A stretch of 64,000 bases of DNA, taken from Mytilus galloprovincialis. Its lineage: Eukaryota; Mollusca; Bivalvia; Mytilida; Mytilidae. The notes under the pieces were generated by a model. The model saw only the letters and a list, made by a program, of their open reading frames with translations, made no database searches and was not told the DNA's origin. This document shows positions 6,744-58,294 of this stretch, one piece after another. Numbering within the stretch: position 1 is the stretch's first letter; each line of letters begins with the position of its first letter. The stretch is taken from the NCBI RefSeq assembly GCF_965363235.1, contig NC_134849.1:54382122-54446121 (forward strand). Direction: 5' to 3'. The translations under genes and the position numbers were made by a program.

Positions 6744-9700
6744 ATGAATACTCGACCACACACCATTGTTTGGATTATACTTTTGGTGTTTTCCTGGAAA
6801 TGTGGAAAGGGTGAGTAGTTATCAAATGTTTATGTTATTATTCCTTAGGAAAACTGAATAATGAAAAATCGTTAATTTCTTTTTTTAAACAAATGAGGTA
6901 TCCGTGGACGCTTTTTATATAAATAGTTTTATATATAAATGACTGTATATACGTACTGTATATAGCTTTTTGCTAGTTTTTACTTAATATTTAAATGATT
7001 AGGAGTAATGTTGCATCTTAAGTTATAGCAGTACTGTTTTCCTGTTGACACAACATAATTCCAGCTTAAAATTAGGTTATATTTGATTAGCCTTGCAAAT
7101 TTCGAAGATGTTGTCTTCTCCTTTTGAATTTTAATATGTTGTACGGGTTACGTCGTCTCCTGCTGTAACATAGTGTTTGACCAAAGCAAAGTATAACACT
7201 AGATTTACGTATGAGGAACAATCCATTTCAGTAAGAGTATTAGAAGCTACAATGGAAACATGGAAACAAGCGGTTCTAGATTGCTATGGGAATAACTCGT
7301 TTTTGGAAAGCAACACCACTGTTCTTAAACAGTACATGGTCAATCATAACGAAGTGAATGATAGTATTTGGGTTGGCAGCTTTTTAGCTTTACTTCCTTG
7401 GATTGAAATAAGAGGTAGGTAATTTATAACGCTTTTTGGTAATGTGTTACTGAGGGAAAACATTTTTATTTTATTCGTTCCATTCTATTAACATAGAAGC
7501 TGGAGTTGGAGCAAGAAATGGAAGGAATGATGGGTTTGCCTATGAATTTGTAAAAGCTTTTTTTTGGATTATACATAAATATGGAATCAAAAAATAGAAA
7601 ACTAGAGCCAATAGATTAGTGCTGTGGTGCGTTAATATAAAAAAAGTGTTTTTAAATGCACATTTCTTCGCTTAATGTTTGTTAAATGCGCTTCAAGACA
7701 TTGTCATTTGAAAATTTAATTTAAATTTGAAAACTATTTACAACCCTCAAGTAAGCCTCTGATTAATTGTCTTCTTATGATCATAATGTTGTTTTTTTAT
7801 AGTCGTGTCATTTCTTCAACGATTCTACATCTCCTTATAGTTTTTGTATGTTCAAATATGTTTGTCCTGAAAATTACCGAAGAGACAACAGTTGTCGAAT
7901 TGCGCATCTTGTGTTGTAGTTTTCATCTGTTTATAAACGTAGGTAGTTGTAAATCAATTATATAAAAAAAATTATTTCAAAAGAAGTGTTCAAGCAAAAA
8001 AAAAAAAAAAGCAAGCAGATATGTTATAATCAGTCAAGTCTGTGAATGAATTGTGTTATAAAGGATCCTATTTTCGCATAAATCATTTCCTATTTATTTG
8101 TTTTAAGATTTTAGTTTATTTATGTTTCTGAAAGGTTGTTACAATATACCACTAACATGTAACAGCTTTGAAACAGACGAAAGAAATGCCACAAATTTAC
8201 AACTGTGTCAACTCAAATGCATGAAAAGACGATATTTTGCATTTAACCAAAAAGTAAGTGTACCAGTCATGAAATTCATTCAACTGTGGGGCAGTCTAAA
8301 GTTTTTTTTCTGATCTTTTCAAGTCTTTTTTTTATAAAACAGTCGATAGCTACTCCAAGTTTAAAGCTCGTGGATATCTGATTTAGAGTAAAAATGTAAG
8401 AACCCTTTGTTTGTTGACAATTTTAATGACATAAATCAACATAAACATTATAAAAATCAAATAAAAAGGTTTTAAACTTATTAGATCGAGAAAAAAAAAA
8501 AAAAATCCGCATACACACAATTAAGCAAACAAAAATCAGAAAGAACATATTTGAGAGTAAGTTGAGTAATTAAACGCTAGTTCATGACCAGTAATAACTT
8601 ATGATACACTCATTTATTTAAAACTGAAATTTCCATTTAGGTCATTGAAATAGTCATAGGCCCAATAACATCCCTGTATTTGTAATTTAATCACACATTT
8701 TGTCGGCTTTAAGCGACTATATTTTCGAAAATAGGCACAATGATCCCTTACACAATATCTGTTTTTCTAAAACTTGTTAATATTCTATACATGAAGCTAC
8801 CGTTATATACAATTATATGAAAAACTTAAAGAAAGAAACAACAGTTGAGGAAAGCAAACATTTTAGGGTTATGTTACAGTCCTTGTTTTTGATTCCAACA
8901 AAATTTCAAAAAAAAGCTTATATTAAAAAAATAAATTCTTAATTCAAATATATATTTTAGAATAAGAGATGCGTTTGCTTTGATGAACACGATGTAGTGA
9001 AAAAAGAGACTGACAATGCAACTTTTTGTCAAGAATGTACAGACAGTGGAGACTGCAATACACACGCTGTTGTATACAAAGGTTTGCATTAATATAAGAA
9101 ATGGCACAAAACCATTACTAAATATACACTACCATCTTGAAAACAAATTTCAAAATGGCATTGACAAAGAATGTTTTCAAACTTCAAAACGGAATCATGT
9201 TAAAAATAAGCTATACAAGGTAAACAAAGTGACCACACATACCGTAATATTGTTTACATTGTCTATTTTTACAGAGTATAGGCTTGATTTGCAGGATTCA
9301 TCTTTATTTTAGTTTAAAAATGGGAAAACAGCACGTTTAATCAAACATTTTCCCCACTAAGTTATATCTGAGTCGTGCCACTTTGCTAATACGGAATATA
9401 AACGCTCATTACTAATGCTAAATTCGAAATCTCATTTGTTAGAAGATGTTGTCGCCTAAAACAACATTAAAAACTAAAATACCATTCACCATTTTGAAGG
9501 TTGTCGGAAAAAGACGGAGACAATAGTTTATCTGCAATTGGAAAGACCTATTCTATATATCAAGATTAAGATACAAGGTTAAATGTTTAAAGATTGTCAA
9601 TGTAGACATTTGAAGTATAATGTCGGGTATTAAATCTTTCAAGCACGGTGTACGTACTGTTTTACAATATTAACAGCTGAAGTACACATTGTTGAATACA

Positions 9701-12700
9701 TATACTTGTTGCAAAAATGAACTGTGGAGTTTTGTTCTCTCCATGATATCAAGCCAATCTACACAATTATACACATTTGCATGTATTACGTATATATATA
9801 TTTAATATATGATTCAAAGATTTTGCATAATTATTTTCATCCAATTTAAAATACTTGATTTATTTTTTGTCTACAGTTTTTGATAGACCAATAAATTTAG
9901 CGGATACTAGCCATGACTGCCTGTCTTACCAATGTAACTATACTGGCGCAATTCCAATATTTAACACACAAGAATGTTTTGAATATTCCAGATCATATTG
10001 TCGTAAGTATATTATATCATGAAAGTAAAAAATCGGTAGGAAATTAGTATGGTTTAACTGCAAGACGATAATTAACCTACTTAGACACAACAGAGGCGCT
10101 AAAAGAAAAAAGCAATTCTTGATACTATTACATCTGTGTCAGTACTACCTAACATTACATTTTACAACACTTTTCTTAATCATGCCGAACATGGACAAAC
10201 ATTCGTGTATCTGTTTCTTCGTGATTACGAGGGGATAGATAGAAAGTATATTTGTGAAATGGCAAAGAATATTTTCACCATGAGTAACATACACATTTTT
10301 ATAAATGCACCTGAGATCACCCCTAGTTTTTGGTGGGGTTCGTGTTGTTTATTCTTTAGTCTCAGTACAAGAGTAAAGTTAAAGAATATTTAAATCGAAA
10401 TAATGTGCTTAGTATTAATACAAATGCTTTCTTTTACGTGAACGGGAGTCGAATAGAATTTCATTTTATTAATACAAATTTGTGAGCAGATATATGTAAA
10501 AAATGTTTAAAAATTTGGAACCATTAGTATTTCCATCTAGTGAAATAATCCTGGGTATCATATTGTCAGAACAAGCTCTTAAAAAATTGTACTATCTGCC
10601 TCTCCGCTAAGCTAGATCATTAAAAAGAAAAAAGACGACCGATTTGCTAGGAATCAGAATAATCTTTACATGTAGAGTTACTGGCACTTTGTGAAGTTAT
10701 AAGTTAGAAATCCAGCGTGTTGATCTGTTACCAAAATGGTTTCATTCATATCACATCAGCTTGTTCTGATATTGAATATGCATTTTGAACAGCCATCTAT
10801 CAATCTAGAAAACAATGTATATACCGCAGTGTGTCGTTTACGTTCATGGTAATAATTTACTCTTGTGTTCAATTCTCTTTGTTTTATTTTTTTGTTATTC
10901 ATTAAAAACACTCTTCAATTATCCCTTGGTATGTTTCTATCTGTTTTAATCTGTATTTCGTTTTGTATAATGTCGTCATGTTTTGGTTTGTCTTCATGTT
11001 TTTATAGTTGCCATGGATATTATCCTGTCTGATTGCACAACGCAATATTCAGTGATAATGTAGATGAGAGTCATTATGTATAGTTTGTTATAACTCTGAA
11101 TGACTGATTTCTTTTCGAAAATATGAAAAAAATTACGGAAATTTGGGTTTCGGCTAAAATCAATTAAATATAATGTCTATTCAATGCCAGGAACCAGAAA
11201 TCCATCATATCTATCATATTTTATATCATTTGATTTTATGGAATACATAAAACGTTGGTTTTCCAGTTTTAATCGTATACATTTTTCATGTTAGAGCCTT
11301 CCATACTTTATTCTACTAAATGGATTTGTCTAAATAGTATGTTCGACAAATAAAGCGCTTGTTTAAAGTAGTGTTAAGAGTACTTTAAAAGCAAATTAGT
11401 CGTACCACATCTAATGTACTTGGTAAAACTCTGGATGAAGGTCGTCAAAATATGGATACGTAATCACATTATCTCCATGTTTAGTGTGTTTATTTACATT
11501 GTACAACCCTGTCAACTATCATGGTATCGTCATCATGAACGCCGGGGAAAGTGCTTGATCACACAGAATGCATATGATATAATATCTTTTTTTTTAAAGA
11601 GAATTGATAAAGAAAGCACCACAAATACTACAATTTATACTGCATTCGTTCTATTTGAGCAGTCAAAATGCGTTGACTGTATATTTCTATGTCATATCCC
11701 CACTGACCCGATATCACTTTTCCTTATGAATATGTAAATAGAAGTTATTTAATTATTCATACAACCTCTTAACCTGTTCTTGTTTCCAATGTATACAACG
11801 AAGATTCGAAAGACTAAAACTTATTTCTTTTACAACTTTTGGAAAAACATGTTTATCTTGTTCATATTTTTGTTTGAAACCTATAAATCATTATGCTTTA
11901 TGCTTTATGTTGATATTTTTTTGTCCAAACTCAAACAAATTCGTTCACCATCGATTGTGGGTTTCAAACATGTAATATACATTTCATTCACTGTGTTGTA
12001 TATTTCTTTGCCTGACATGAGGGATTTTCCACAATATCTAAATCAAATAAATAACATTAACACATAAAACAACAATTGCAAATTCGTTTTTTTAGATTGC
12101 AGTATTAAGACAATAATAGTGCATTGACCTGACACTTCTTTTTTGTGATATTTAGGGGATGGGCGAAGTGCTGATGGCCCTGCATATCAGCATTTCTTTC
12201 AATATCGATTTACGTGTGAGGAAAATCATTTCACTTATCCACTTCTTTATTCGGAAAATCCAGTTAACCTTTGTAACTTATCAGAATCACTTACCCCAGG
12301 AAGAGATGTTTGGGTTGGTGTTTACAGACAGAAACTATACGTAGACAATTCGGATAATGCAGGTAATATATCGGGTGTATACTCGGATGTACGATGATGT
12401 CTTATGTTGATTTACTGTCACTTACCTTAAAAACGTGCAGTTTTGAGTATGCATTACAAGAATATGTACACATTGTATGATACCTTGCTACGTATATAAT
12501 TCTACATGTTGTATAGGGTGAGATATTATGGACATAATTGTGCAAATAGTGATACAAGCATGAAATTTGGTATAAAGGTTGACTAAATGATGCTTAAACA
12601 TGTTAAAAAAAATCCGCTGCTGGCTAGAATTTTCAAAATGGCCATTTCGGAAATGGCGTCATTACAAATTGGCAATAATTCGTTAATCCTTTGAAAGGTG

Positions 12701-15700
12701 TGTCAGATGTAAATCAATATTATATTTTATAAAAAGTAAATGATAGTTCCTAAATTACGACTAGACAATACATTAATGAAACTAAACGTGACTTCCGGTT
12801 TCAAAATGCCTGCAAAAAAGTAAAACAAAATCAATTTTTATATTTTCAAGCAACTCCACGAGGCATGTAAATCCTTGAAAGATGTGTTATAGGTGTAATC
12901 CATTGTAAGTTTTGATAAAACGTTAAAAACACTTTCTACGAACGACAAAACAACACATAAATGAAAAAAATAGTGACTTCCGTTTGAAAAATGGCGGCAA
13001 ATCCGTAGAAAATATTTTTATAACTTCCATCAACTTAACAAGTCATAGCATACATGTAGGCATAGGTTGCTTATCTTATAATTATCTGATAGTTGTCTAT
13101 ACAACAACTCGTACAAGGAAGGCCAGAACGGTAGCATCTACAGTTACCAACACAGCTGGATTTTCGCCTCCGCATTTCAAAATGTCTTGACACGAGATGC
13201 AACGGCAGCCAAAGAAGTCCATCTTTGTTTCCAACTGTCATTGATTCTTCCTTTTATCCAACCCCAGTGTTTATGACTTGGTACATGTACCTGTCGAATA
13301 CATGAATCAGACTGATCCTTAGCAACTCCTCCTTGATATACTTCTGTTTTGATGTGCTCTTGAAAACTACCTCCTGTAGGCGGAATTACATCACAATGCC
13401 GCTGCTTCCTGGCAAACATTTCACATCGTTAATCGCTTCATACTTAAGCCAAATCAAAACGTCCGTTACATCTGGAAAATCTTCCATTGTTAGCGAAGCT
13501 GACCTCTTCCCTTTCTCACGACATTTCGAAAAAGTGCATCATCCACTGAATGTATGGACGAAAGTAAGAGCAGCTACACATGGATCAAACACATTTGATA
13601 TGTCCAGTACAGGAAGCCATCAAAAGTCGTTATTCCTTCCATAACCTATCAACAATTTGTTCTACCTAATTTTGCGATTGCTGCAATTCTTGATACTATT
13701 ACATCTGTGTCAGTACTACCTAACATTACATTTTACAACACTTTTCTTAATCATGCCGAACATGGACAAACATTCGTGTATCTGTTTCTTCATGATTACG
13801 AGGGGATAGATAGAAAGTATATTTGTGAAATTGCAAAGAATATTTTCACCATGAGTAACATACACATTTGTATAAATGCACCTGAGATCACCCCAAGTTT
13901 TTGGTGGGGTTCGTGTTGTTTATTCTGTAGTTTTCTATGTTGTGTCATGTGTACTATTGTTTTTCTGCTTGTCTTTTTCACTTTTAGCCATGGCGTTGTA
14001 AGTTTGGTTTAGATTTATGAGTTTGACTGTCCCTTTGGTATCTTTCGTCCCTCTTTTATAAGTCTCTTAAGAAGCAATTTTGTCAGCAAGACACTTGAAC
14101 AATTTCGTTTCGTTGTCATCTTCACAGAGAAAACTACTACAAACCCTTGGTGTTCTACAAGAACCAACACCTTTTCGTCTGGCACAAGAACCTTGCCGTT
14201 GTCTTGTCACAGCCTTTTAATTATTCATTAAACATCAAATACAAATACTTTTGAATACTTATCGATGCAAGATTTTATATAAGGCAGTATGACATCATTA
14301 GCATAATCATCAAATATTTTTGCCCAATTTTGTGACCTGGAATTAACCATTGTTTCCCGACCAACGATAAATGGGTCCGAATTTGGATCAGCAAATCGCA
14401 GTTCAAGTAAAACCCATTTGCAGCGATTTGATACAACTGTTTCAAGTGACATCCTGAGATAAAGACGGAGGAGCAGTTTAGTTTTTTTATGGATAAAGAA
14501 ATATTGCAAGTAAAACTGTCTACTGTGACAAGAAATGAAAAGTCTAGGAAAGATATCACAATCACTTTTAAAAGAGGGACGAAAGATACCAAAGGGACAG
14601 TCAAACTCATAAATCTAAAACAAACTGACAACGCCATGGCTAAAAATGAAAAGGACAAACAGAAAAACAATAGTACACATGACACAACTTAGAAAACTAA
14701 AGAATAAACAACACGAACCCCACCAAAAACTAGGGGTGATCTCAGGTACTCCGGAAGGGTAAGCAGATCCTGCTATTCTCTAGCTTTGTTTTTGACAAAG
14801 TCGTTTCCAGTTTAATTTTGTTTTTGGTTATAAAAAGTAGGTTCTCCTTCGTTTTGCATTTGCTTCAAAAGATCTTCGTATTGTTTGGATCAATATCTTA
14901 GAGTTTATTTACATATCTTACCTGTTTCCGAATCAACAATTTTCTAAATGGAGTAATTTTTTTTACAAATCTGACGACTCTTCTATAAATGAATTTCCCG
15001 ACTTATTCATAACTTTACAAAGCCTTCAAAGCTGTTTAACGAAATCTTTTTGTGTTTTCGTAGAGTCTTCATTATGTCGTTCGTCTGTTGTAGAATGACT
15101 CATACCACTAGATCTTTCAAATTCATCTTCTAGTATAGTGACTCCTGGTCCAGCTACCATCAATTTGTATAAAAGGGATCTTCGGTTAATCATATGGTAC
15201 CAACATAGCCCTTCACAATTACACTATTCTGTTTTTGTGCCTGATGAATTGTGTTATACGAAATAGATTAGCTGGTAATACGTACAGTGAAATTATCATT
15301 TGCAAATTCCATCGCCGCTGGTGATGTTCGGGAAGGATAGTCATATCTCGGAGACGAGTCGGTAACGATCGAGCATTATTTACACGATCAAGACCTAAAA
15401 CAATACGCTATCATGCTTTATATGGACAGTTTGAAAAGTACGAAATCTCACCCATGAAATGAGCATAATACCAAAATCAGAAGAGGTTCTTAATTTATGA
15501 TTGAACGCCAGGAACTAAACTGTGGTCGCGATGACTATATTTCCTTATACTAGTCTTTTAAATCATTTAACGCCACAGAGTCAAGACATAATTGTATATT
15601 CTGAGTTTTGCTTTCATAATCAAATCGAAATTAACAATTCAAGTAAAATACATGCGATTGACTGATGCGCCTGTCTAGTTCTAGGTACATTTGAACATAC

Positions 15701-18700
15701 ATAAAAAGAATCTGCCGTTCTTGATGTTGCAATGTTGGCTTCAGTAAGACAACATGTTCATCCCCTATCACGCAATATATATCCCCCAGAGTTTTACAAC
15801 AAGTCATTTCAATGTGCAATCTTCCAAACATGACGATACACGTATCTTTTTCTTACAAATCAGGCTATTCCCACTGAATTTGCTTAGGCATTTCCAAAAG
15901 TTGCTGATCTGCAGTTGCAATTGATGTTTCGCCGGGATTGACCGCATTTAAGCCTTAACCATCGAATACCTGAGAATTGCCTGGTAGTGCTTACAAATCG
16001 CTCTTGGTGTCTATGAATAGTTTGCACATGCACATAAGTGTTAAACACATGTGTATCATAACCTTGAAAAATGTTATTAAACCAATTCATAATATTATTA
16101 GAAAACCAAAAACACTAAACATATGGTAAATAGTTCAAATGATTTTGAAAGAATTTTGTTACATTTTCGCGCATGCGCAAATACTGGATATGTCTAACAT
16201 TCATTTTTTATAAATAAATAATGTAAGGAAAGTATCAACCGAACCTGGTAATTGGTTTTTACTAAAAGAAGTCCAAAGAAAAGTTTTCCAGAAATTATCA
16301 GTATTTTCAAACTAAAGAAAACAGCCATTTTAGAAAATGGCCGTGGCCATCTTGAAAAAAAAATTGCTTTAATGGCCATCAGTTATTTTTTAAAAAGTAT
16401 ATAATAATGATGCTTTGTGGTAATTTTCATGCTTGTATCATCATTTGCACAATTCCCTCGATTTTGCTTTCCAATATCTTACACTTCTATGGATACATGC
16501 TGAGTACTGTATTCATTTTTGAACAAAAAGGGAAAATGAAAATATATTGAACAAAATCTGATTAGATTAATGTAACATGCGTAAATTTTATAACCTTAAA
16601 GACTAAATAAGCGTATTGAGTATTAATAACTTTTCATCACCGCTGCTGTTTGATGTTTACTGTACGCAAAAGTATCATTAAAACAATAATTGGTGTACTG
16701 ACATACTCATATGCTATTCATAAATCATTAAAAACTATCACAAGTTTATCTTGCTTTATATTTCTTCTAGCAGACTGGCAATCGCTGTAGATAGCAATTC
16801 ATTATTTCTCTAAACTTTTAATTCTCTAATGTTGAATAGATCATGTTAAACATCATAAGTGTCCTTTTTTGTTTTTTTTTTATATCTAAGAAGTCATGCT
16901 GTTCTCAATTATTACATATTGTGCAATAAATGATCACAGTTCGTAGTATTTAATTAATCTTTCACTCAGGAACCTGGTTGATGTAGCTGAAGATTGAGTA
17001 TATTTCTTATATCTTTCAGTAGGTATTATATTCAAGAGCTTTCGTACCCTGTCAAATATAATTAGTTATCAAAGGTACCAGGATTATAATTTAATACGCC
17101 AGACGCGCGTTTCGTCTACATAAGACTCATCAGTGACGCTCATATCAAAATTCCAAAAAGTCGTGCCAAATACGGCTAAGGTAATCTATGCCTGGGATAA
17201 GAAAATCCCTAGTTTTTCGTAAAACTCAAAGTTTTGTAAACAGGAAATTTATAAAAATGACCATATTTATTGATATTCATGTCAACACAGAAATGTTGAC
17301 TACTGAGCTGGTGATATAACTTGCAAGAGTTTTACTATTTGCATATTGTCTTCTTAAAAGTACACAATTCATCCGCAGAAAAAAAACAACAAAAAAACAA
17401 TGTTAAACTCTGACTATTCAGTTTCATTTGTTTAAAACTATACATTTTGCAATATCACAATGTCAAATATCTACAAATTGATTCATTATCATGATATTTT
17501 ATATTTTACTTCCTTTTTCGTTGTAGTTATACAACACTTCGACCAAATTGAGCAGTACATTTCACGTTGTGACCATTTACCAGCAAATGATGAGTGGGCG
17601 CAAGCCGAGAATTGCAGCGGAACACATCATTACAAATGCGCTTTAGGTCAACTCGTTAAAAGAAATTGCACGAATCAAATCAAAATTAGTCTAGTTGTTA
17701 TTCGTTGTATAAGAATACCAAATAAATTTGTATATGTTCTGTTCATTTCATGTTCATATGTTGTGAATGCTATGTATGTGTTTCTGTTTTGGTTTATGTA
17801 TACGTATCAAATCTACAATTTGTCAATCCTACAATATTATTTCCCCTCAAAACATAATTAAAAATAGTCACTTGATTTGTGGCAAAATTTATCTTAAATA
17901 TTGTGCTTTTTGATATGCATTCCATAGTGTCAAAATAAAATTAGAATTGATTCATAAATTGTTAAATCATCTTTTTCCGGCCTTATTATACGTTCCCACA
18001 ACAGTTGTGCCATACATGTGTATATATAAGATCAGTATCTACGCATGATTTGATCTTCAAAAGTTAAAATAATGAGAAAAAATCTGTTTTAGTCTATCCA
18101 TGGCAACATTCTGTATTTTTTATAAATAAAGTATTGCTAAAATTGGCATAAGAGTATAAATTTTCTTTTACTTCATTTTCGTCAGATCTAATCACAAAGT
18201 TCATACGAAAAATGTTGAAAAAAACCAATATGATAATTTAATGTCTGGTTTTAAATGAAAATGTTGTCTTAATGTTCCTATAAACCAACTAAGATGGTTG
18301 TATTCATTATCAGCTATCCGAAAATAAATAAATAAGCCTCATCAAAGTGTATAATCTATAATTAAAAAATATATTTTTTAACTCCAGCAAAAATTTTAAC
18401 TTACAACCATGCCAAAAACATAATTTGACTTATTCGCATGCAAACTATAAAGCAATGCATTCCGATGATATTATAAAAAACGCAAACTATGGTAACAAGG
18501 ATGAAGCAGCCTTTTGATGTGTATTTTATGTCAATGGTCCTACTAGAACAAACAAAAACCATATCAGCCTCATATAGCAATTACAAATTTGAATTTATCA
18601 ATGCAAACATACACCGATCAATTTAAGCACCAAACATTTAGTTTTGATATTGAGCGTTTTCAGTTTTACAGCTTTAATCTTTTAATACGTATAGACATTT

Positions 18701-28640: not shown

Positions 28641-28693
28641 TTCTAAGAATTGTTTTAATAATTTCAGAGAAACTTTAAGATATAAGACGAGGT

Positions 28694-44467: not shown

Positions 44468-44731
44468 GTAATTATTGGAATCTGTTTTGTCAAAATTTGC
44501 CCTGCTGAAACACCACTCTATGAGAAATCGTCCTTGCATAAAGATAAACGACTTAAAAGTAGACAATTCAAATGTTGTTATATTTTCGCCTTTTAAAAGT
44601 ATTGTCATTTCTAATTTCTAGCATTTTAGTTCTGACAAACACCCCTATATCAAACAAAAACGCTTTACTAATTAGAACTTTGAGGTTTTTTTTTTTAATT
44701 TCAGAGAACACTCCAAGAAATAAGACGAGGT

Positions 44732-47618
44732 ATGTCTATCCGACCAAACACCTTGATTAAGATTATACTTTTGTTTTTTTCCTGGAAATGTAGAAAGAGT
44801 GAGTATTTAAATAAACAACAGTAATGATTGTATTAACTTTCCAACATATGCTTAACAACCAACCATGTACTACTAGTATTTACAGAGCCTCAAACCATTT
44901 AATAAACTATGCTGTATTCAAGTACAGCCTTGGAAAATCTAGTGAGACTTGTCCTGGTCGAGGGCTTTATTTCGTGCAGTATATATGTAGCTGTTTACTG
45001 TATATTCATTGGTAATTTTGATATGATGATACTCAAACTTTATATATGTTCTTCTTTAAGCCTGTTGTCCTAGATGAGGATACTCACCTTGATGTGAAAT
45101 AATTTTATGCTTTGTTTTATACTTATAAATACGACTGACATTATTCATCGACGAATTATATATTAATAAATGAAATATTTTATGTCGTTTTTTATCGTTT
45201 ATATTTGATTGACATTATTTACGTACTGTATATAGCGTGCAGATATTTTTGCCTAAAAATTTATTGTTCATGAGTAATATAACATCGTTATGATATCAAG
45301 TCTAAGCAATCATTATTATCCGTTGATAAAAAAAAACAGTTCCAGTTTTTAATCAGGTTCTGGTTGTGTTGTTTTACTGTTGACGGTAATGTTGCCTTCT
45401 CCTTTTAAATTTTAAAATGTTGTACATATAACTATGTCTCCTCTACAACAGTGGGTTTGACTACAGCATAGTTTAACACTTGATTTGTATTATACATGCT
45501 GATATTTCAACCAATTTCAGCTAGCGGATTGGAAAATACAATGAAAACATGGAAACAAGCGGTTTTAGATTGCTATCGGAATAACTCGTTTCTGGAAAGC
45601 AACAAAACTGTTCTTAAACAGTACATGCTCAATCATACCAACCAAAATGATAGTATTTGGGTTGGCAGCTTCGAAGCTTTTCTTCCGTGGATTGAAATAA
45701 GAGGTATGCAATTTCAATAGATTCGATTAGTTATTGCTAAGGGAACACATTTCTTTTATTCATTCCATTCTATAAACATATTCAACTGAAGAGGTTTCAA
45801 TCTGGAACCAGAAATGGCCGGGATAGTTGGCTTGACTTTGATCTTCTAATAGTAAATTTGTGTGCTATACATCCATCGTACATAAGGAATCACTGTATAG
45901 AAAATTAGAACCGATTGATTGGTTGTGTTGTAGTGCAATAGTTTTCAAAATATGACGTAAACAATGTGTACGTTAAAAGCTATATTTTAATATCATTAGC
46001 TTAATGTTTGTTAAATTAGCATGTTGATATTGTAACATAAAGGGAAACTCTATGCCCCCTATTCAATTTTATCGTACCATCTAGCTTCAAGACATTGTTA
46101 ATTGAAAATTGAAGTTAATATTACAGCAATATACAACCCTAAAAAAAAAACTCTGATTCGTTGTCCTGTTTTAATTATAATTTTTTTGCCATAGTTAGTC
46201 ATGTTAGTTGTGTCACTTATTTATTCATCTATTCTATTAATCGTGAATATTCAAATACGTCGTCTTGAATATTACTAAAGTGACCATAACTGTCGAAATG
46301 CGCATCTGCTGTTGCAATATTTTGTTTTGTTGATAAACGTCATTATTTTTACTAATATTGTACATTTTTTATATGACAAAAGCAGGTTTAAGTATAAATA
46401 ATATCAAGCAAATATATTCCAATCTTTCATATCTGTGAACAAAAACATGGTTTTCAAATAAAATCAATTTGCACGAAACTATTTCCTTATATCTGTTTTA
46501 TTCTTTAAGTTTATTTCTTATTATAAAAGGTTGTTACAATATACCACTTACATGCAACAGCTTAGAAATAGGTGAAAACAAAGCCACAAATTTACAACTG
46601 TGTCAACTAAAATGCATGAAAAGACGATATTTTGCATTTAACCAAAAAGTAAGTTTATCAGTAAAGAAATTAATTTAAGTATGGGTCAGTTTAAAGGTTT
46701 CCAACTTATCCTTTCGCTTTTCACAGTCTATATCTATTCCAGATTAAAATTCCTTGGCAATCTGTTCTATAGTAAAGATAGAAGAATCTTTTTGGGAGTT
46801 AAACTGTTCTAATGACATACAGCATGTACAGAACAACATAAAAATCAGACGAAAAGGTTTAAACTCATCACTTCCATCAAAATAACATTTACACACAGTA
46901 AACCACAAACGTCGAAAAGAACACATCTGAGATGTATCTGTAATAGTACGCTGGTTCATTGCCAATACAAACTTATGATACAATCATTTATCTGACACTT
47001 AACTTTCTATTCAGATCCTTGATAGAGTCGTAGGACAACTATCATCCCATTTTTCGTAATTACAATTACTTTTTTTCTCCTTAGCTCGTGGCTACAAAAA
47101 TCAGCAAAACATTAAACCTTTATTTTTTATTACAACTTTTATTTATTACACTATTAGTTATTATTTTATCATATGGTACAAAAATCAACCCAAAAAAAAC
47201 TTTTAAAATGTTTATATCATTGAAAAAGCTCCAAATTATCTCCCTTTGGTGCAAAAATTCCATTTTTTGGCATTACATTTCAAATATCTTTTTTAACTCA
47301 TCGGTGACCTATATTTTTATTATTGTTTTCAACAAGTTGTACATAAACTAAACAATTGTAAAATATTAGCGATTTCTGTAATTAGGTTATTTTTTTATTT
47401 CGATATTACCTCTATTTCTCCTATTAGCTCAACAGAAAAAAAGGACATTAACAAAAATGTATGCTTCTTCTGGAGGCAGATTGTGAGCTTAAACGAGTGT
47501 ACATGTACATGTATGCTATAATAATTCACTTAAGGAATCATGGTTGTCTGTTGTCGCATATTTTATCACAATCTTTGCTCTCAGCTTCCAATACTTGTTA
47601 ATTTTCTATATGTCCTTT

Positions 47619-47681
<63 letters not shown>

Positions 47682-50600
47682 CCGTAATTACATTATCACT
47701 TTGTATGTTATAATTCTTCAATTAATCTTTGGTCTACTGATTCTTAACAAAAATCATATGATTAGGTTAAATTTGCAGTTTTTGTGTAGTCGATGTGTCA
47801 TTGGAAATAATTGCCTTGTTCAAGAAACGCTCATCCTGTTAACTGTTTTCTTTTTGTCTATAGGTATGGGTTTGAATATATTTACATTTCAAATTAGGAA
47901 TAGTACAGTCGATATCTATTTGTTTGATGTGTCAGAACAGTTGAAGTTGACATTTTATATAAGACTTTTCGTTTTTACTTTTCCATTGAGTTCAATTTTT
48001 TATGCTATCTACAGTGTAACTTTGTATTACCTTTCGGACTTTATATATTTTGGGTCTCGAAAACCACAGAAGAACATGTTGTTTCATATCCCTGAATCTA
48101 GATTATTAAATCTGTATTTCAAACCAAAATGTAAGATTCATCTGGAAAATCCAAAAACTTTTGGGTTATGTTAAAGTACTCGTTTATGATTCCTAAAAAA
48201 ATACAGTTGTTGTCCATTCGTGTAATGTGTTTTGTCATTTGATTTTGCCATTTGATTAGGACTTAACGGTTGATTTTTCCTTGGAGTTCAGTATTTATTT
48301 GATTTACGTTTTACACGAAAAGCTAAAAAATCAATAATAAAATATCTTAATTCAAATATATATTTTAGAATGAGAGATGCGTGTGCTTTGATGAACACGA
48401 TGTAGTGAAAAAAGAGACTGACAATGCAACCTTCTGTCAAGAATTTGTACATCATGGAAACAGCAATACATACGCTGTTTTATACAAAGGTTTGCAATTA
48501 TAACTTGTGGTTACTCCCGGCTTTAAATGAAGCATAATTATGCCAGGATGTAGCAATATACACATTTTTTGCTAATGGGCTTTGCTTATATGATTTTTTT
48601 GTTTTTTTATTCATATGACGTAGTTCTGTACTTATAAATTACGCCATTGTGTTTTTGTTCTATGAAAGTTATCGTATTCTTATAATTCTTTATTGGTAAT
48701 GTGATTTGTCTATATGCCGCTGTGGTGTTCCTTTGCTCTTTTAATGAAAAAATTCACAATACGCATATATACAAGCGGCAATAAAGACAAGGACATTTTT
48801 TTTAGATTCTTCAGCAGATATACCAAACACGAACTATAGGCCGTTAGTTTTCTCATTTAATTGTTTTACATCGTGATTTGGGGCCTTTTATAGCTGTCTA
48901 TGCGGTATGGGGTTTGTTTTGCTCATTGTTTGAGGCCGTCCGGTGACCTATAGTTAATTTCTGTGTAATTTTGATCTCTTGTGGAGAGTTGTCTCTTTGG
49001 CAATTATACAACATTTTCTTTTTTACATAGACTATATTCTGTTCATACTTTGAAGAACACAATTACTTTATATATACCTGTGTGACATTTACACGCTGAA
49101 CAACTGATGAACGTCAAGCGCGCGTCATAGTTAATGTTAACGTAACCATGTGCCTGCCAGGGTTAGGATTCGGTCCCAGTTATTAAAATCGTTTAATTAA
49201 AAAAGCAATGAGTGAGGTTGCTAAATTTGATACATGCCTTTTTGTGCTTCCTTGTTACATATTTGTTGTTTTTATAGTAATTAAGATTGTACAATGTATA
49301 ACAATGGTTACTGCTGTCTCATATTTTTTCATATGTACACAGAGTATAGGCTTAGTAGACAGGACTTAACATTTTGTTTGTTTCAATTATGTTAGATTTG
49401 TTACAACATTGTAGCAAAGATCGCATAGTAGTATACACCAAACAGTGTTTTACGAAGTTTATCTGAGTAGTGCCGGAACACCTTGCTAATAATAATATTA
49501 ACAATCACTATAATGCAAAATTAAATATCTCATTAGTTTTAAGTTTTTGTCGCCAAAACAACAGAATATATGTTTGGAAAAAAATAATCATTGTATATAT
49601 ATGATAAGAACATATCAAACTAAGAATTCGGCATTCCGCCAGCAATATAAACTCCCTTCACCATTCACAAGGTTATCAGTTTGATACAATTGTCTATTGA
49701 TCATTTAAACGCCTATTCCATATATACATTGTATGTCAAGGTTACAATTTAATGTTTAAAGATTTTCCATTTAGAATCAATACACTTTGCTGTTGTGTAT
49801 TATATCTTTAAAACATGGTGTATGTACTGTATCAACAGTCTGCTTATAAGTACACATCGTTAAATACAACACCTACTGCATAAATCTCCACGATATAGAT
49901 CAATTCAAAACAATACATGCCTTTGCATCAGTACACGTTTTAATTTACCATTGTATTTGCGAGTTCAATCTTTTAATTTGAAAACAAGATATGTGAATCA
50001 ATGTTTAAGCATTTGTTTCTAATTTTTTTCTTTTTTGTATAAAACTATTGATTAATCGTATTATCTTTAGTTTTTGATAGACCAATAACTTTAGAGGGTA
50101 ATAACCATGACTGCCTGTTTTACAAATGTACCAATAATGGCACAACGACAGTGTTTTCTACAAAGGAATGTTATCTTTATTCAAGATCGTTTTGTCGTAA
50201 GTATATTAGATAATAAAAGAAAAAGTCGGTAAAAAGTACTCATGGTTTATAACTTGTAAAACCTGACGATTGTTTTATTCACCTCAATGTTTTCAAGGTT
50301 TACAATAGTAATCAATATACTGAAAGATCGATCTGTCAAATTGATTACCAGGATGATCATTTCAAAATTGAACAAAATATTTAAATGGTTTCAAAACTTA
50401 TCATTTATATCAAATGTCTTCTTTAAGTTTAAAGAGGTCGGGAAACCAATTTAACCGGTAAACGTTTTTGTATTCGATAATATATATGTCCAACGGATAA
50501 CCATTTAACCATTTACACCACCATTTTTTAATTCTTTATCTGACTTCAACCACTGACTTACAAATCAAATGTTTGTCTTAATTCTGTTTTATATTTTTGT

Positions 50601-53600
50601 TTCTTTTTATAATATTTAGGAAATGGGCGAAGTGATGATGGTGCTCCATATCAGCATTTCTTTCAATATCGCAGTTTTTGTGAGGAAAATCATTTCACTT
50701 ATCCACTACTTTATTCTGAGGATCCGGTTAAACTTTGTAACGTATCAGATTCACTTATCCTAGGCATAGATGTTTGGGTTGGTGTGTACAGACAGAATCT
50801 ATATATAGACAATTCGAATAAAACAGGTATCTGACCGGGTGTATCCGAGTATTTACGAAGATATTCTCTGATGATTTAATGTCACTTTCTCATTTATTTG
50901 AGCATCATTGATTGCATTTACATGTTTTCATGGTATAATATATGTCTGCGTATAATGTATGACATGTACTTTTGGTTAAAAAAAAGAAAGGATATATACT
51001 GTATTTCACTTAATTTGATAAACAATGATAAACTTAATGTGAATTTAAGGTCTTTGAATAAAAAAAATGAAAACAACGTGTTTAATAATTTCAATGCGTC
51101 CGAAGTGTTTTTCTGGATTTACCTTCATCAGGAACGCTCAGAGCAAAACACTTGAAATCAGAGGATGTATAAGTTACGACACCGTTGAAGAGATATATGA
51201 CAAAAATAACTGAAATTGATAGCCAAATTCATCTAAAGTGAACTTTGCCTGAGGGAGTTGAAACCTTAGTTTCTTAATAATTTCAAAATTTATAAACGGA
51301 CAATTTTAGAAAAGTTTGTTATATCATGTCAGTTCCAAAGTAATAACTAATGAGCTAATGATACCCTCGGGGACTGATAGTCCACCAGCAGAGGTATCGA
51401 TTAATCTTCAAGAGGCGTTGTTATTATCATTTAGTCTTACTTCACCGTAGCTGTTTGTCCTTTATGATACGCAAATCCACTTCTTAATTTGTGTACTGAC
51501 AAACACATACGATACTCCCCAACACAATATATTTGTTTTTTTTTAATATCAAACAGACCATATTAAACATTATAATTGTTAATTTTTCGTTTTTTGATCT
51601 TGACACTCGTGTGAATCTCAACAATAACATAGTCTGCATACTAACTTTATATTTGTTCTTAAAGTTGGCATTTTATATTAGAAGTTGTGCACCGTGTCAG
51701 ATATAACTTGAAAGCCTTCTGCTGTTTGCATATTGTCTTCTTAAAAAATATACAATTCAACCACATAAAGTATGAAGCAATGTTTAACACTGACTTACCA
51801 TTTTCAGTTTTCAGTTCCAGTTAACAGATGTAGTTCCCCTCCACCTCTTTAATATTTTTGTTCATAATATCAAAATTTGTCAATATATGTCAAATATCGA
51901 CAAATTGTTTCATTACCATGTGGCTTCATATTTTACTTTTGTTTCCTTTTTAGTGATACAATACTTCGACCAAATTGAGAAGTACATTTCAAGTTGTGAT
52001 CTTTTACCAGTGAATACTGAGTTGGTGCAAGCCGAAAATTGCAGCGGAAAACATCATTACAAATGCGCTTCAGGTAAAAGAAATAACTCTAATCAAATCA
52101 AAATTAATGTTGTTACAATTCATTGTTAAAGAATATCAAATAAATGTGTGCATGTTCTGTGCATATCATATTTATATCAAGGCAATGCATTTCTTTCCGT
52201 TATTTGTTTAAGTATAAGAATCAAATCTAAAATGGACTATTAAGTCAATCCTAGAAAATGTTTCCCTTCAGAACTCAAATAAGAATATAACAGTCATTTG
52301 ATATGTGATTAGATATATATTAAACATTGCAATTCTGTGCTTTCTGCTATGTCAAAAGGTAGCACTCCACATATAAAATTGAAATTTAAATTAAACCATA
52401 TAATATCTAATCATCTTCTCTTCCTGGCTTATGATACATTCAAGCTATTGTATGTGTCATACGTGTATATATTTATGTAGTCAAAATGTTTCTTTAATTT
52501 TATTTTTGAAGTTAAAATGGTGAAAGATAAATCCTTGTTTATGAATGGCTGCATTGTTTATATCATGAGACTTCCAATCACTATGAGTGAAACTTTTTCT
52601 GAAACTGTGTACATCAGTTTACAAAATGATCGAATACAGTTGTTAACAAGAGTGAAACTAATGAAGTACATATTACCTTTGAAGTTAGTATCAATCTGAT
52701 CCGTGAAATATTGATGTATATAATTTGTTTATACTTCAGGCACTCAAATAAATATTCAGGATGAACCAATTAACACCACTTCAACTCTAGTGTGTAAGTA
52801 TAAAGGTAAGATATGTCGAATGAAGTAGCAATCAATCTCATGTGTTATGTTAGTGTAAAGTAAAGCAAGTCAAATATATCGACATCCCAGAAATATTTCT
52901 AACCGACACTTATTACGCAAACTGCAAAATCAAATGCTCATACACACCAAATAATTTAAAAACAACTGTCATATCTCTGAATCTGTACATCCATGTTCTT
53001 ATCTAGGAGAAAGAGGATTAAACATTGCCCTAAAGGCAGCCAAGCCAACCACCTGCATGACAGTGTAATAAAATTTCATCACATAGAAAATGGTGTAAGA
53101 AAAACTAACAAAAACAATAGCCAAACATGTTCAAAATAGGGGTACAGAGGTCAACATTGTGTTCTAATCATAATCACTATAAACCAAACCAGTATGTAGC
53201 AATGAAGCTGAAAGGCATTAAAGTACATGACGACATGTATAAGTACAGAGCCACATCATATGTAATATGGCTTTGATAAATTTGCTGCAATAATAGTTCA
53301 AACCAGTGCTAAAAAACAAAAACTAATCCGATAGGCAATACAATTGACACAAAAGGATTGATTGTCATATTTCATTTGCGGACTTGTGTTTCTATGTTCA
53401 TATGCATTTTTTTTGGGTAATTCTGTACTAGTGTTATCCCTCGATTTATACTTCATGATAGCCCATCAATTTATTTATTCGCTGTGTTAATTGTGTTCAT
53501 TTCATTTTCAGACTATTATACAGGAAATGAAGATAATCAGACTTCAGGTAAAATTTAATTACGAATAGTTTTTTTAATTCCATCATTTTCATACAAAATA

Positions 53601-56600
53601 TTTAACCTAAATATTGTAGTAGGTTGATTTTTTTTTATAAAGTTAGGATGCACAAAACAGGACAAAATATCCTTGACTAAATATGGATGAAAAAAATAAT
53701 AAAAAAACGAAATGTGCTGTGGCGAGGTTGTTCCACTTTATGATATATTCTCGTTGATTGATTTTATATGATAAGGTAACAATTGCATTTGACCGGACAT
53801 ATATAATATAATTGTCTACTCTATAACATAATCATTGAATGTTTTTCGTTTGCAACATAGTTCAAATGTCTTTATCGGGGTAAGATAAATAATCAGTAAA
53901 ATTTCATATTATACTATTGCTTGAGTATTTGTCGAGAAGTAAATAAACATAACTTGCATTCATAAAAAAGCAACAGTAAACAACGTAAATAGTTATCAAA
54001 GGCATCAAGATTATAATGTAGTACGCCAGACGCGCGTTTCGTTTTCGTTTATTTAAGACTCATCAGTGACGATCAGATCAAAATAGTTATAAAGCCAAAC
54101 AAGTACAAAGTTGAAGAGCGTTGATGACCCAAAATTTTAAAAGTAGCCAAATACGGCCAAGGACGACAAGGAATAAACAACACTAACGTTGAACAAAAAC
54201 GCAGTACACTTTCCTTGTTCATGGAAATAAAGAATTATCGGTGATTAAGCTTAAAGGAGTTGTCCTTTTGAATGGAAATTCTGCCATCCCTCCGTAAATA
54301 TTAACTCATATTCACTTATTTCATATCAAACGAGATATACCAGAGTCATCAACAGTTAGACGAAACATGAACATCAGTACATGCGCATTGCCCAAGACAG
54401 TCCTTACAACAATACAAGTTTTAGTTTGATTTCATTTCTTAAATACGGGAGATTTGCTTATTCTTCAACAATTACGGATCGAAGTAATTAAACACAAAGA
54501 GTGGCATTGAACCTTCATCCATAGATTTATAAGGCTAATAGGAGAAATGAAACGAAAAAGCTACTTCATAATTGCAAGTGTCCGAAACATGTTTTTTTTT
54601 ATCTCTGGGTTTCTCTTAATGGCTAGTTACCGTAGGCATATCTTAACATGAGGAGAGATCTTATTCAATTATAAAATAAGAAAAGAAAAGAGGAGTTGCT
54701 CTGGCGACAGCAACAATTTCTTAAATACACTCAATAACAGTAATTCAGAAAATAACGGCGTTTAAACAAACCTTCAATAGATATTTTGTTTTCATCAAAG
54801 TGAAATTTATAAAAAAGAATGATTTTCTCTCTTCAAAGTCGGAACTCATAACAGGTCTAGTTAAGTCAAGAATTACATCATTCTGATAAATATATTTAGA
54901 ATTTTCGGTTTCTACTTAAAAAATATCAATACGAATTCCTTCTTTAAATAGTTAACACGTTAATGTCTAAAAGAGCACGATGTTGTTTGTTTCGCAAAGG
55001 AAAAATAAAAAGTTTGACAGGTGATCAGGAAAACTTGAGCTTTGATGTTATCTTTTATCATGCCTATTTCGTTTCTAACAAATTTAACTGATTTAAAAAG
55101 TATTTTTGAATGTTAATTTCCTAGTTGTCCGTTAACCAGACCTCGACTAATTAAAAAAAGAAGGTTGAATAGTATTTTTAAGTTTTCATTAAAGAAGAGC
55201 GGATTATGTTCTTTGTACTGTTGTATCCTTACAATGTAAATACAACTCTCTTCCTGTCCATCTTAAAATTATTTGGTCAAAAGAAATAAGTATCTCTGTA
55301 CATGTCTCTATGCATTATTCAAAAGTACAATAGTTATCAAAGGTACCACGATTATAATTTATTACGCCAGACGCGCGTTTAGTCTACATAAGACTCATCG
55401 GTGACGCTCATATCAAAATATTTATAAAGCCAAACAAGCACAAAGTTGCAGAGCATTGAGGATCCAAAATTCCAAAAAGTTGTGCTAAATACGGCTTAGG
55501 TAATCTATGCCTGGGCACACACGTACGCTTATCTGTTTAAAAATAATCAATCACATGTACGTTGCACAGTGCTTTTAAAGTTTCAACGCATTATACATGT
55601 ATATACATATAGAATAAGAAAAAAAAGAAACATGATTGCATATTAGACAGCTGGAAATGAATAGAAGATAAACTTTATATATATTATGTTGAAATATATT
55701 TTAATGTAGCTATAATTGCTGGAACAGTAACATCGATTTTGGTGATTGGGGTTGTCATTGCTATAGTTGTATTAACATGTAGAAGGTTTGTATCATTTGG
55801 TCATTTAAAGTTTAGTATACACAATTATAATCCTGGTATTTATGATACGGTTTTACCAAACACCTATGATTGCTGCAATATCTTGATGTGTACTAGTGTT
55901 TGCGTTTTCTTTGTACTATAAGGAATGTAGTTATTTTAGCACATTAATCATTCTGTAACGCGGGCTATGAATGTATGAATACTGATGAGATAAAGATGGT
56001 TTGCTTGAAAAAAATCTGAAAGTTCATGCTAATTCTATTATATTTATGTGTTATGGTAAAGAAAATTAATCACCGAATTCATTTATTAGATTTCATTTTG
56101 TTCAACGTAATGAGTACGATATTTTACGTTTGAAGTTAGATTCAAAACAAACCGGACATAGCTTTATAATATAGTTAATTGCTACCTTAGTTTGCTATTA
56201 ATAAATATAGAAATGTGCATTGTTATTAAATGCAATATCAGTATTTAGTTCAAATATAATCTTAAATCAATCCTAATTCTATCTTATTCATTCAAATGAC
56301 GTTATTTTTCATTTTAAGATGATCTGTTTTACAAATTTAAATGACGTCATTTTTTTGTCATTTTTTACAATTTCAAATATGACGTCACTTGGCGTTGAGG
56401 TTTAAACTTATTCGGATGTGTCTACATGTTGTGTTGCAAATGTCTGGTTATGTAATGTATTTCAGTTGTGTTCTGTTATTAGTTAATATTTCAGTTTTAT
56501 CGTGTACAGCTTTTGTTTAGTAATTTTATAAATTTACTGTTTGCATAAGTATAAATTATTCTTAATAATAGGGATGTTCTGGTAACTAACAGAAAACCCT

Positions 56601-58294
56601 GGCCGTTTTTGGCACAACTTTTTTGATCTTTTGGTCCCCGATGCTGTCCGACTTTGTGCTTGTTTCGGCTTTCAAACTTTTGTATCTCGGCGTCACTAGT
56701 ACATGTAGATCTTGTGTGGATAAAATGCACTTCTGGCGTATTAAAATTTTCAACTTGTTGCCTTTTGTTGGCTGTTGTTCGTGTGTTTCTTTGTCAATTG
56801 TGTTCTCCAATTTATTTATATTGTAGTCCTATGGTGTTGAGTTGTCATTTTAATGTTATATTTCACATGGCTACAAAAGAGGGAGGTTTGGCATGCCACT
56901 AAACCAGGTTCAACCCACCATTTTTTCTTTAAAAATGTTCTGTACCAAGTCAGGAATATGGCCATTGTTATATTATAGTTCGTTTCTGTGTGTGTTACAT
57001 TTTAACGTGACGTCGTTTGTTTTCTCTTATTTTGAGTGTAAATTCACATTGCGATAAGACGTGTCACGGTACTTGTCTATCCCAAATTCATGTATTTGGT
57101 TTTGATGTTATATTTGTTATTCTCGTGGGAATTTGTCTGATGCTTGGCCCGTTTCTGTGTGTGTTACATTGTAGTGTTGTGTCGTTGTTCTCCTCTTATA
57201 TTTAATGCGTTTCTCTCAGTTTTAGTGTGTTATCCCGATTTTTTTTTGTCCATGGATTTATGAGTTTGAACAGCGGTATACTACTGTTGCCTTTATCTAT
57301 ATTGTCCTATACATTTATAAGTTATTTTCAAAAGAAGTAAACCAATGCGTTAAAGGTTCTTGTATTTACACCAGTCGGTCACATTTCCTACCGCTTTTTA
57401 TATATATATAAAAAATTAAAGGACCTGATTCAACATGGTTTTGTATGGTGCGATAGATACTGCATGAATTTGCTTCAATTATCAAATTTAAAAGGAATGT
57501 AGTTACAATACTGTTGTCCTTAGATATATTACATTGTTGGAATTGATATGGCTTCACTCGTACGGTCTTGTGTCAGTGCCCAACAGGTCGTCTAGCAACT
57601 CAAAATCTAACCATAGCTTTAAACATACGAATCACAAGAGTTTAAGTTACGATACTATTGTCCAGTCATTTAAAAAAATCAATGTTTAAAAATATATTTA
57701 TAGGGTGTATAGTGTTTATTTCAGAACCACATGTAAAATATGTATTAAACACATCACAAACATGGAGTTTTAATCAAATGTTAATGATTAGAATGATATC
57801 GATAATCATTAAATTATTTCAGATTCAACTCTCAAAACTCCTTTGCAAAGCCTCCAGAAGCTAAGGTACAGAAAACAGGAGAAGATGAAAATGAACATTC
57901 AAGAGTAGTTTCTCCTACTGTTGATGCATCCTGTCTTACAGAGAAAACAATCAATGCTATTGCAAATCCAGGATACAAAGATCTTCAAGTAAAAGTCGAC
58001 ACAAAAAACATTCAAAATGGAGATCAACAAGGTTTAAATTCCATGGCAAATATAATGACATCTGCTGACTACCTCCTAGCAAAGCCAACAGACCCGGTTG
58101 ACCTGACTCTTTACACAGATAATGCAGACTACGACCATTTAAATAGTGCAAAACATCATCAAGAAAAAGACAATGTGAATTTGTATGACCATGTTCCGAA
58201 CATCACTGACTCAGATGACACCTATGATCATTCTGCAATAAACATTTGTAAATCAGATACTAACAACTATGATCACTTCGATGTTCAAAACTAA
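44732..58294 (+). CDS. Receptor copy 3: CTLD-WSC-CTLD-like, TM, YDHL-type tail
   Basis: Predicted single-pass receptor of 530 residues with 11 exons: 44732-44798, 45521-45703, 46530-46648, 48369-48489, 50071-50196, 50620-50826, 51954-52073, 52740-52805, 53512-53547, 55710-55785 and 57823-58294. All introns are GT-AG and the joined frame is open from ATG to TAA. The signal peptide is IIKIILLFFSW-like. The ectodomain follows copies 1 and 2 closely (SIWVGSF, GCYNIPLTC, ENCSGKHHYKC). From exon 8 on it diverges: exon 8 is 66 rather than 69 bases, the helix is AIIAGTVTSILVIGVV..., and the tail is of another type. This is the most intact gene of the three by sequence. The ligand is unknown; a membrane recognition and signalling role is inferred. 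Confidence 0.78.
47619..47679. repeat. (TA)n microsatellite
   Basis: About 60 bases of alternating T and A lie in copy 3 intron 3. Length is likely polymorphic. Confidence 0.9.
48195..48310 (-). repeat. Repeat family E fragment
   Basis: It contains TTTTGTCATTTGATTTTGCC and CATTTGATTAGG, shared with 28445-28640. It lies in copy 3 intron 3, just before exon 4. Confidence 0.55.
48835..49020 (+). repeat. Repeat family B copy
   Basis: It contains GGCCGTTAGTTTTCTCATTT, GGGGCCTTTTATAGCTGTCT and GGAGAGTTGTCTCTTTGGCA. It lies in copy 3 intron 4. Confidence 0.7.
53995..54165 (-). repeat. Repeat family A copy
   Basis: It contains TATCAAAGGCATCAAGATTA, ACGCCAGACGCGCGTTTCGT and ACTCATCAGTGACGATCA. It lies in copy 3 intron 9. 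Confidence 0.7.
55328..55520 (-). repeat. Repeat family A copy
   Basis: It contains GTTATCAAAGGTACCACGAT, ACGCCAGACGCGCGTTTAGT and GACTCATCGGTGACGCTCAT, ending near AGGTAATCTATGCCTGGG. It lies in copy 3 intron 9, about 190 bp before the transmembrane exon. Confidence 0.7.
56580..57300. repeat. Composite of repeats A, E and F in copy 3 intron 10
   Basis: A diverged family A piece (56580-56740, TTGGCACAACTTTTTTGATC) is followed by part of family E (56885-56960, AAACCAGGTTCAACCCACCA). A third segment (56975-57300) contains TTTCTGTGTGTGTTACATT twice (about 56984 and 57153) and ends in CATGGATTTATGAGTTTGAA. All are non-coding. Confidence 0.5.
57823..58294 (+). CDS. Copy 3 cytoplasmic tail exon, YDHL type
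   Basis: This exon encodes about 157 residues after the helix, ending FDVQN and TAA. It is unlike the tails of copies 1 and 2 over its first two thirds but carries tyrosine motifs PGYKDL, ADYLLA, ADYDHL, LYDHV, TYDHS and NYDHF. The stretch YDHLNSAKHHQEKDNVNLYDHV has the same layout as YEQLNNAKKDKSVNVYDQL in copy 2, so the tail ends may share ancestry. Only YKDL, YDHL and YDHV fit YxxΦ, and none fits the full ITIM pattern well. Confidence 0.75.

Follow-up and report, generated by a model that had tools for sequence, protein, structure and literature searches.

The question raised by a 64,000-nucleotide stretch of the Mytilus galloprovincialis genome (C12:54382122-54446121, plus strand; the whole stretch is referred to as the window) is whether three neighbouring genes in it, here called A, B and C, represent a receptor family that combines recognition and signalling parts. 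An earlier note, based on the letters of the window, had proposed a mussel recognition-and-signalling family with two C-type lectin-like domains (CTLDs) and a WSC-like domain outside the membrane. Our analysis, in which the complete genome (1.38 Gb, 331 contigs) was searched, suggests that A, B and C probably belong to an array of lectin-like type-I receptors that combine ectodomains with two kinds of tyrosine tails, would signal through phosphotyrosine and are organised like paired receptors, with outputs that we infer to be opposing. A query with the foot-protein-1 repeat gave 10 matches in the genome, all within a single 770-aa open frame on C4, in agreement with a Mytilus-type source and with the word mussel in the note. 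Of the earlier proposal, the type-I membrane topology, the lectin-like pieces, the tyrosine-rich tails and the tandem arrangement are retained, but glycan binding is not and the WSC assignment is weak.

Three collinear genes in a larger tandem array

Genes A (6744-23084), B (28694-39873) and C (44732-58294) are all on the plus strand and consist of 11 exons each, with the exon ends placed by splice sites and by comparison between the copies. All 30 introns have GT/AG ends, and the intron phases after exons 1 to 10 are 1,1,0,1,1,1,1,1,1,2 in A and C. The predicted A and C proteins are 533 and 526 amino acids long and without internal stops, while the 628 amino acid B protein is predicted only with a shifted exon 5 donor. 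Specifically, exon 5 of B is one base shorter than in A and C according to the alignment, the A/C-type donor at 33315 gives no read-through, and the frame is open only if a donor 4 nt downstream is used (33319|gtatat; exon 33191-33319); for B the donors of exons 1 and 5 are second choices, the first choice having failed. Given the missing base and the dependence on the downstream donor, three possibilities exist for B: a copy whose donor has shifted, a pseudogene of recent origin, or an error in the assembly. With this caveat, the three tandem paralogues with 11 collinear exons described in the earlier note are present, with GT-AG introns and matching phases, and the first and last coordinates of the note (6744 and 58294) agree with ours. 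The ectodomain proteins are 73-75% identical between the copies, and the ratio of non-synonymous to synonymous substitutions (dN/dS) is 0.49-0.61. An Rfam scan of the window gave no matches.

The tandem family is far larger than the three genes noticed previously, and these lie near the start of a larger array. All array and tail match counts are lower bounds. Searching with the C ectodomain (E ≤ 1) gave at least 45 exon matches, and 41 of the 45 are located in C12:54.38-55.20 Mb, all on the same strand; likewise, at least 20 exon-2 relatives form a same-strand array within C12:54.39-55.23 Mb. In the two relatives D (54.626-54.646 Mb) and E (54.733-54.754 Mb) exons 2-7, 10 and 11 are recognisable; exon 1 was found in E only and exons 8-9 in neither. 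C-type tails gave at least 10 matches at E ≤ 1 (nine on C12; the weakest at E 0.8), and B-type tails at least 12 matches at nine places, all in C12:54.37-56.02 Mb. One B-type tail match, approximately 7 kb upstream of the window (G000:C12:54374367-54374990), has five stops and is probably what is left of a further copy. Mussels show high gene presence-absence variation (PMC7653742; C-type lectins are not named in the part of that paper covered here), and the copy number of the array may therefore differ between animals.

Exon 1 (A, 6744-6810; B, 28694-28760; C, 44732-44798) carries in A the start codon and a signal-peptide-like stretch. Since the N-terminal hydrophobic stretch exceeds 1.6 on the Kyte-Doolittle scale in A alone, a signal peptide is plausible, although its mark is weak in B and C. 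Each protein has one strong membrane helix, encoded by exon 10 (A, 20795-20873; B, 38253-38331; C, 55710-55785), with 19-residue window maxima of 3.45, 3.41 and 2.76 in A, B and C, respectively; of the two features described earlier, one membrane helix thus stands for all three genes and the signal peptide is plausible.

Two kinds of tail on similar ectodomains

Tyrosine motifs were counted in six tails (A, B, C, E and the relatives L075 and L078) and compared with 2000 shuffles, using YxxL/I-x6-12-YxxL/I as consensus for the immunoreceptor tyrosine-based activation motif (ITAM) and [ILVS]xYxx[ILV] for the inhibitory counterpart (ITIM). The B tail (exon 11, 39117-39873) has 15 tyrosines with 9 YxxPhi (2.6 expected), 7 ITIM (0.47 expected) and 4 ITAM matches (0.04 expected), and its four YxxL pairs have Y-Y distances of 16, 15, 15 and 13. 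A remote B-type tail (L087, C12:55009721-55010380; locus C12:55009771) has 9 YxxPhi, 3 ITIM and 2 ITAM matches and pair distances of 17, 15 and 15. Neither the likeness of the three genes nor the motif excess in the B tail is due to chance. Both B-type tails (39117-39873 and L087) also resemble tandem repeats of a unit of approximately 60 residues, each with one YEQL...YDQL-type pair.

The tail of A (22610-23084) is a shortened B-type tail, which ends early and has Cys instead of Tyr in the first pair; it has 4 YxxPhi motifs (p 0.017), one ITIM (not significant) and no ITAM. The tail of C (57823-58294) is of another kind, with 4 YxxPhi motifs (p 0.027), the sequences NPGY, YDHL, YDHV, YDHS and YDHF, and neither ITAM nor ITIM matches. 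Similarly, the E, L075 and L078 tails have 5 YxxPhi motifs each (p 0.011-0.018) and no ITAM, and the ITIM consensus is absent from E and L075 and present once in L078 (not significant). Four YDHx motifs in a row are conserved among the C-type tails, and C and E also have an NPxY site. When the C-type tail was aligned with seven relatives (of the ten C-type loci, L081 on C7 and L082 were left out), the eight Tyr columns were 0.84 conserved compared to 0.54 for all the other 126 columns. Hence, the paired-YxxL tail previously ascribed to all three genes applies to B with its four pairs, but not to C, and A is short and lacks the first paired Tyr.

The tail types do not follow the ectodomains. 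For the ectodomain, dS is 0.226 between A and C, 0.307 between A and B and 0.281 between B and C. For the tail, dS is 0.264 between A and B and 2.0 between B and C, and between A and C it is not computable with dN at 1.07. The membrane exon, which in C is strongly diverged from A and B, has dN values of 0.04 (A-B), 0.45 (A-C) and 0.54 (B-C). Expressed as ectodomain/tail identity, the values are 75%/17% for A-C, 53%/56% for C-E and 73%/73% for A-B, and the ectodomain tree separates (A,B,C) from (D,E) with a support of 100/99. Ectodomain and tail are accordingly discordant for A, B and C versus E, and one kind of tail for all three genes, as claimed before, is contradicted by C, which has another tail than A and B on a similar ectodomain. 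Such a cluster, in which the genes have similar ectodomains but differ in their tails, is a mark of paired receptors and is seen here.

The stalk is encoded by exon 8 (A, 19409-19477; B, 36496-36564; C, 52740-52793) and exon 9 (A, 19760-19795; B, 36848-36883; C, 53512-53547), and in C exon 9 with its flank is the last clear match to A and B. Because A and C last match clearly at the DNA level in exon 9 and its flank (19731-19900 with 53483-53633), the break between these two genes lies most likely between exons 9 and 10. The intron alignments give no sharp break, since in introns 5-8 only 3-24% of the length aligns between A and C, which is as poor as intron 9 (6%).

Along the array, 13 of the 20 genes could be given a tail label; D, with its mixed tail, and six genes for which no tail was found were left unlabelled. 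Tails other than those of A, B, C, D and E were assigned by position, and where two tails were present downstream (C, 55057601) the nearer was taken. On the exon-2 tree, from which the far copy C12:49485100 was omitted, the 13 labels require six changes (bootstrap range 5-6) compared to a mean of 4.6 for shuffled labels, and since all 500 shuffles were as low, tail type is, as judged from this tree, not predicted by exon-2 kinship.

The alternative that fares best, and to which we give nearly an even chance, is that there are two old tail subfamilies and that the likeness of A, B and C reflects gene conversion of ectodomains, with no functional opposition between the tails. This explanation is compatible with the gene-level part of the reading that we favour and denies only the paired function. 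Ectodomain gene conversion would yield the same discordance, and the D tail has stretches like both types, which is why the tail types possibly are the ends of one continuum. On the other hand, discordance recurs beyond A-E, where the B-type gene 55057601 and the C-type gene 55107122 form a sister pair at 89/92; this support is below the star limit and the tails were assigned by position, so the recurrence is not decisive.

Composition of the ectodomain

Exon 2 (A, 7232-7414; B, 30459-30641; C, 45521-45703) carries the signature of the N-terminal half of a CTLD, i.e. a helix, W..A...C and a W-hydrophobic-G core. The profile A3, built from 21 genomic copies of exon 2, matched 64 PDB sequences at E ≤ 10, and named CTLD proteins constitute most of the best 60 of these 64. 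The PLA2 receptor was matched at 8.5e-10 (with the whole multi-domain chain) and the best single-domain chain was aggrecan (0.0013), and the alignments run from helix 1 to the WIG core. Against mussel CTLDs the profile scored 31.3, with 60 shuffles reaching at most 16.3 and an HH probability of 77%. Pfam Lectin_C was matched weakly by 7 of the 21 members (E up to 1, best 0.004; the tabled member scored 18.3 bits compared to the cut-off of 22.6). Given the PDB matches of the profile, with Pfam weak, the most suitable reading of exon 2 is an N-terminal CTLD half. The AlphaFold model of exon 2 has a low mean pLDDT (63.3) and the order helix-strand-helix-strand-strand, as expected for such a half.

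Exon 6 (A, 12156-12362; B, 33808-34014; C, 50620-50826) and exon 7 (A, 17527-17646; B, 34698-34817; C, 51954-52073) appear to encode the two halves of a diverged CTLD. Taken from A-E, they scored 28.6 against mussel CTLDs (60 shuffles at most 17.7; HH probability 44%) and align nearly end to end, at positions 21-123 of 127. The AlphaFold model of exon 6 (mean pLDDT 65.6, low) has the order strand-strand-helix-strand-strand, and the first CTLD helix is absent. Two CTLDs had been proposed earlier; a diverged one in exons 6-7 is consistent with our data, but what was called the first is in contiguous sequence only an N-terminal half. Moreover, EPN/QPD/WND-type motifs are present in none of A, B and C, and therefore classical sugar binding is not predicted and glycan binding by the CTLDs, as suggested before, is unsupported. 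As the usual calcium/sugar motifs are lacking in the ectodomain, its ligand is probably a protein or an atypical ligand.

Exon 3 (A, 8135-8253; B, 31418-31536; C, 46530-46648) and exon 4 (A, 8961-9081; B, 32694-32814; C, 48369-48489) have the WSC cysteine order GCY...C...C...CxC...C with a phase-0 intron just before CxC, which is the same place as in two real mussel WSC units (L005 and L006); two of the exon-4 Cys are absent in B and C and kept in A, D and E. A seven-sequence profile scored 20.6 against mussel WSC domains (100 column shuffles at most 18.9), with an HH probability of 9.9%. The Pfam WSC gathering score was not reached by exons 3-4, with a match in one of 12 and one of 7 members at an E of 0.069 only. 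As a positive control, real mussel WSC domains reached the Kremen WSC structures in PDB at 2.1e-15. Exons 3-4 may tentatively be regarded as a very diverged WSC relative and are termed WSC-like; the intron position and phase and a weak profile score agree with the earlier assignment, but the Pfam and PDB profile searches miss these exons. True two-exon WSC units also form arrays elsewhere in the genome, at C5:70.90-70.92 Mb (spacing approximately 3.0 kb) and C3:78.43-78.44 Mb (approximately 2.1 kb).

Exon 5 (A, 9877-10002; C, 50071-50196) is a short, Cys-rich piece with four Cys in A. We considered it as the C-terminal half of the CTLD started by exon 2, for which the scores give no support. 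With hhalign against mussel CTLDs, CTLD C-halves and exon 7, 7, 47 and 1 of 60 shuffles, respectively, were as high; the score did not rise when exon 5 was appended to exon 2 (56 of 60 shuffles as high), and the pairwise scores were reached by 176 and 96 of 500 shuffles, or by 241 and 215 of 300 with Cys fixed (B omitted). The dN/dS of exon 5 is near 1 (1.33, 1.03 and 0.89) and is based on 41 codons only, and positive selection is not claimed.

These exons are part of a wider proposal, in which a nested CTLD (exons 2 and 5 as its halves, with the WSC-like exons 3-4 inserted between them) and a second CTLD (exons 6-7) have repeatedly been recombined onto an activating and an inhibitory tyrosine tail in a molluscan paired-receptor complex of at least approximately 0.8 Mb, giving balanced hemocyte recognition like that of vertebrate natural killer (NK) receptors. 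The nesting was suggested by the phase-1 introns that flank the WSC-like module and by the cysteine order as seen by eye: exon 5 of A, C, D and E shows C-x13-C-x7-C, exon 7 shows C-x13/14-C-x7-C, and exon 2 of A-C has a single Cys for which a partner is required. The sequence scores do not support it, and we regard the proposal as a whole as rather unlikely. Separately, at L068 on another chromosome (C2:86074647), a CTLD half and a WSC-like first half (the WSC-likeness judged by eye) apparently are present in one exon, and for this reason the adjacency of the two may be older than the array.

Signalling, alternatives and surroundings

In the mechanism that we propose, the ectodomain (exons 2-7) would be displayed at the cell surface, joined via the short stalk and one membrane helix to either tail type. 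Clustering by a ligand would lead to phosphorylation of the tail tyrosines by a Src-family kinase. B-type tails, with their ITAM/ITIM-like YxxL pairs, would then dock tandem-SH2 kinases or phosphatases as partners, and C-type tails a different set of SH2/PTB proteins, such that the outputs could be opposite. By recombination between the stalk and membrane exons, ectodomains that resemble each other would have come to lie on either tail, as they do in paired receptors.

A number of results weigh against this reading. Pfam found no domain above cut-off in the joined A, B and C proteins. The HH probabilities are modest for exon 2 and exons 6+7 and low for the WSC-like exons, and the strong exon-2 score needs the remote copies (exon 2 of A-E alone scored only 11.3 against mussel CTLDs); exons 3+4 of A-E alone scored 15.6 against mussel WSC domains with an HH probability of 1.6%. 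A PDB profile search gave no match for exons 6+7, for which there was no Pfam match either, and for exons 3-4 it gave 15 chance-level matches (interleukin-4 at E 0.16 and worse) and no WSC. To these can be added the low AlphaFold confidence for the exon-2 and exon-6 pieces, the missing first helix in exon 6, and a Foldseek search with the exon-2 model in which nothing was better than E 4.0. Regarding the tails, C has neither consensus and A no ITAM and a single ITIM, the A tail is damaged and B is possibly broken. Finally, the exon-2 tree is poorly resolved, with one of 17 inner branches starred and only one label change forced by it, and the array tails beyond A-E are placed by position only.

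YxxPhi and NPxY are also endocytic signals. The genes could thus represent an ordinary bivalve CTLD expansion of surface or adhesion lectin-like proteins with endocytic tyrosine motifs, in which tail differences are neutral drift; the damaged A tail fits this explanation, and bivalve CTLD proteins with extra domains, including WSC, are described as expanded and uncharacterised (PMC10140915). Nevertheless, the regular Tyr spacing in B and L087 is not needed for endocytic sorting, and the Tyr columns of the C-type tails are more conserved than the rest, and we consider this alternative improbable. That the cluster consists of decaying, unexpressed pseudogenes, as the one-base deletion in B, the truncated A tail and the five stops in the upstream B-type tail might suggest, is very improbable since the frames of A and C stay open across all 11 exons and the ectodomain dN/dS is 0.49-0.61.

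The favoured reading of lectin-like receptors with exchanged tails can be compared with known systems. The ectodomain of Draper is of the EGF type, Ly49-type ectodomains are complete CTLDs, and activating paired receptors have a charged helix for the adaptor; in contrast, no charged residue was seen by eye in the helices of A, B and C. Closest in kind are the oyster CgCLec-TM1 and CgCLec-HTM, bivalve membrane lectin receptors with a hemITAM/non-classical ITAM tail reported to associate with Syk in hemocytes (PMC13027682). The mussel genes differ from these in having a CTLD half, a WSC-like module, a second CTLD-like domain and no sugar motifs, and in exchanging tails, which bear several YxxL pairs or runs of YDHx. 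Draper-I and Draper-II of the CED-1 family are invertebrate phagocyte receptors described with ITAM, ITIM and NPXY tails acting through Src42A-Shark and Corkscrew (PMC4503800); Draper is one gene with splice variants whereas the mussel genes are separate and in tandem. The Botryllus fester co-receptors (FcoR) are reported as a large one-locus family with ITIM, hemITAM or core Y-x-x-I/L/V tails and motif swapping, but with Ig/sushi ectodomains and with the swap made by allele or splicing (PMC12065747). For vertebrate paired receptors (FcR/KIR-like), multigene families are described in which domain shuffling joins ectodomain types to different membrane regions, the activating members using the adaptor FcR gamma (PMC2413239); their ectodomains are Ig, while those of the mussel are lectin-like pieces. 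WSC plus CTL domains are mentioned in passing as an uncharacterised bivalve-specific architecture, with neither tails nor tail exchange described in the text covered, and those proteins may equal the genes reported here (PMC10140915). In a literature search of titles and abstract openings, with subscription papers outside its scope, this combination with these tails was not named among the matches listed.

If our reading is correct, a mollusc has clustered receptors that exchange both recognition part and signalling tail, an organisation known from FcR/KIR-type receptors of vertebrates and, achieved differently, from allorecognition in Botryllus. One could then test whether a single receptor family lets bivalve hemocytes balance activating and inhibitory signals, and the exact exons and tail peptides are supplied here for such tests.

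As for the surroundings in the window, similar frames are seen by eye in introns 5 and 6 of A (10103-10393 and 13599-14012; no Pfam match for the second). Between A and B, at 23946-26448 (+), open frames with a reverse transcriptase match (RVT_1, 3.6e-9) precede one that resembles a tyrosine recombinase (Phage_integrase at 7.8e-6, slightly below the cut-off), and together they recall a DIRS-like retroelement. Upstream of A, at 3075-4415 (+), there is a reverse transcriptase frame (RVT_1, 1.2e-14) that probably is a LINE-type remnant.

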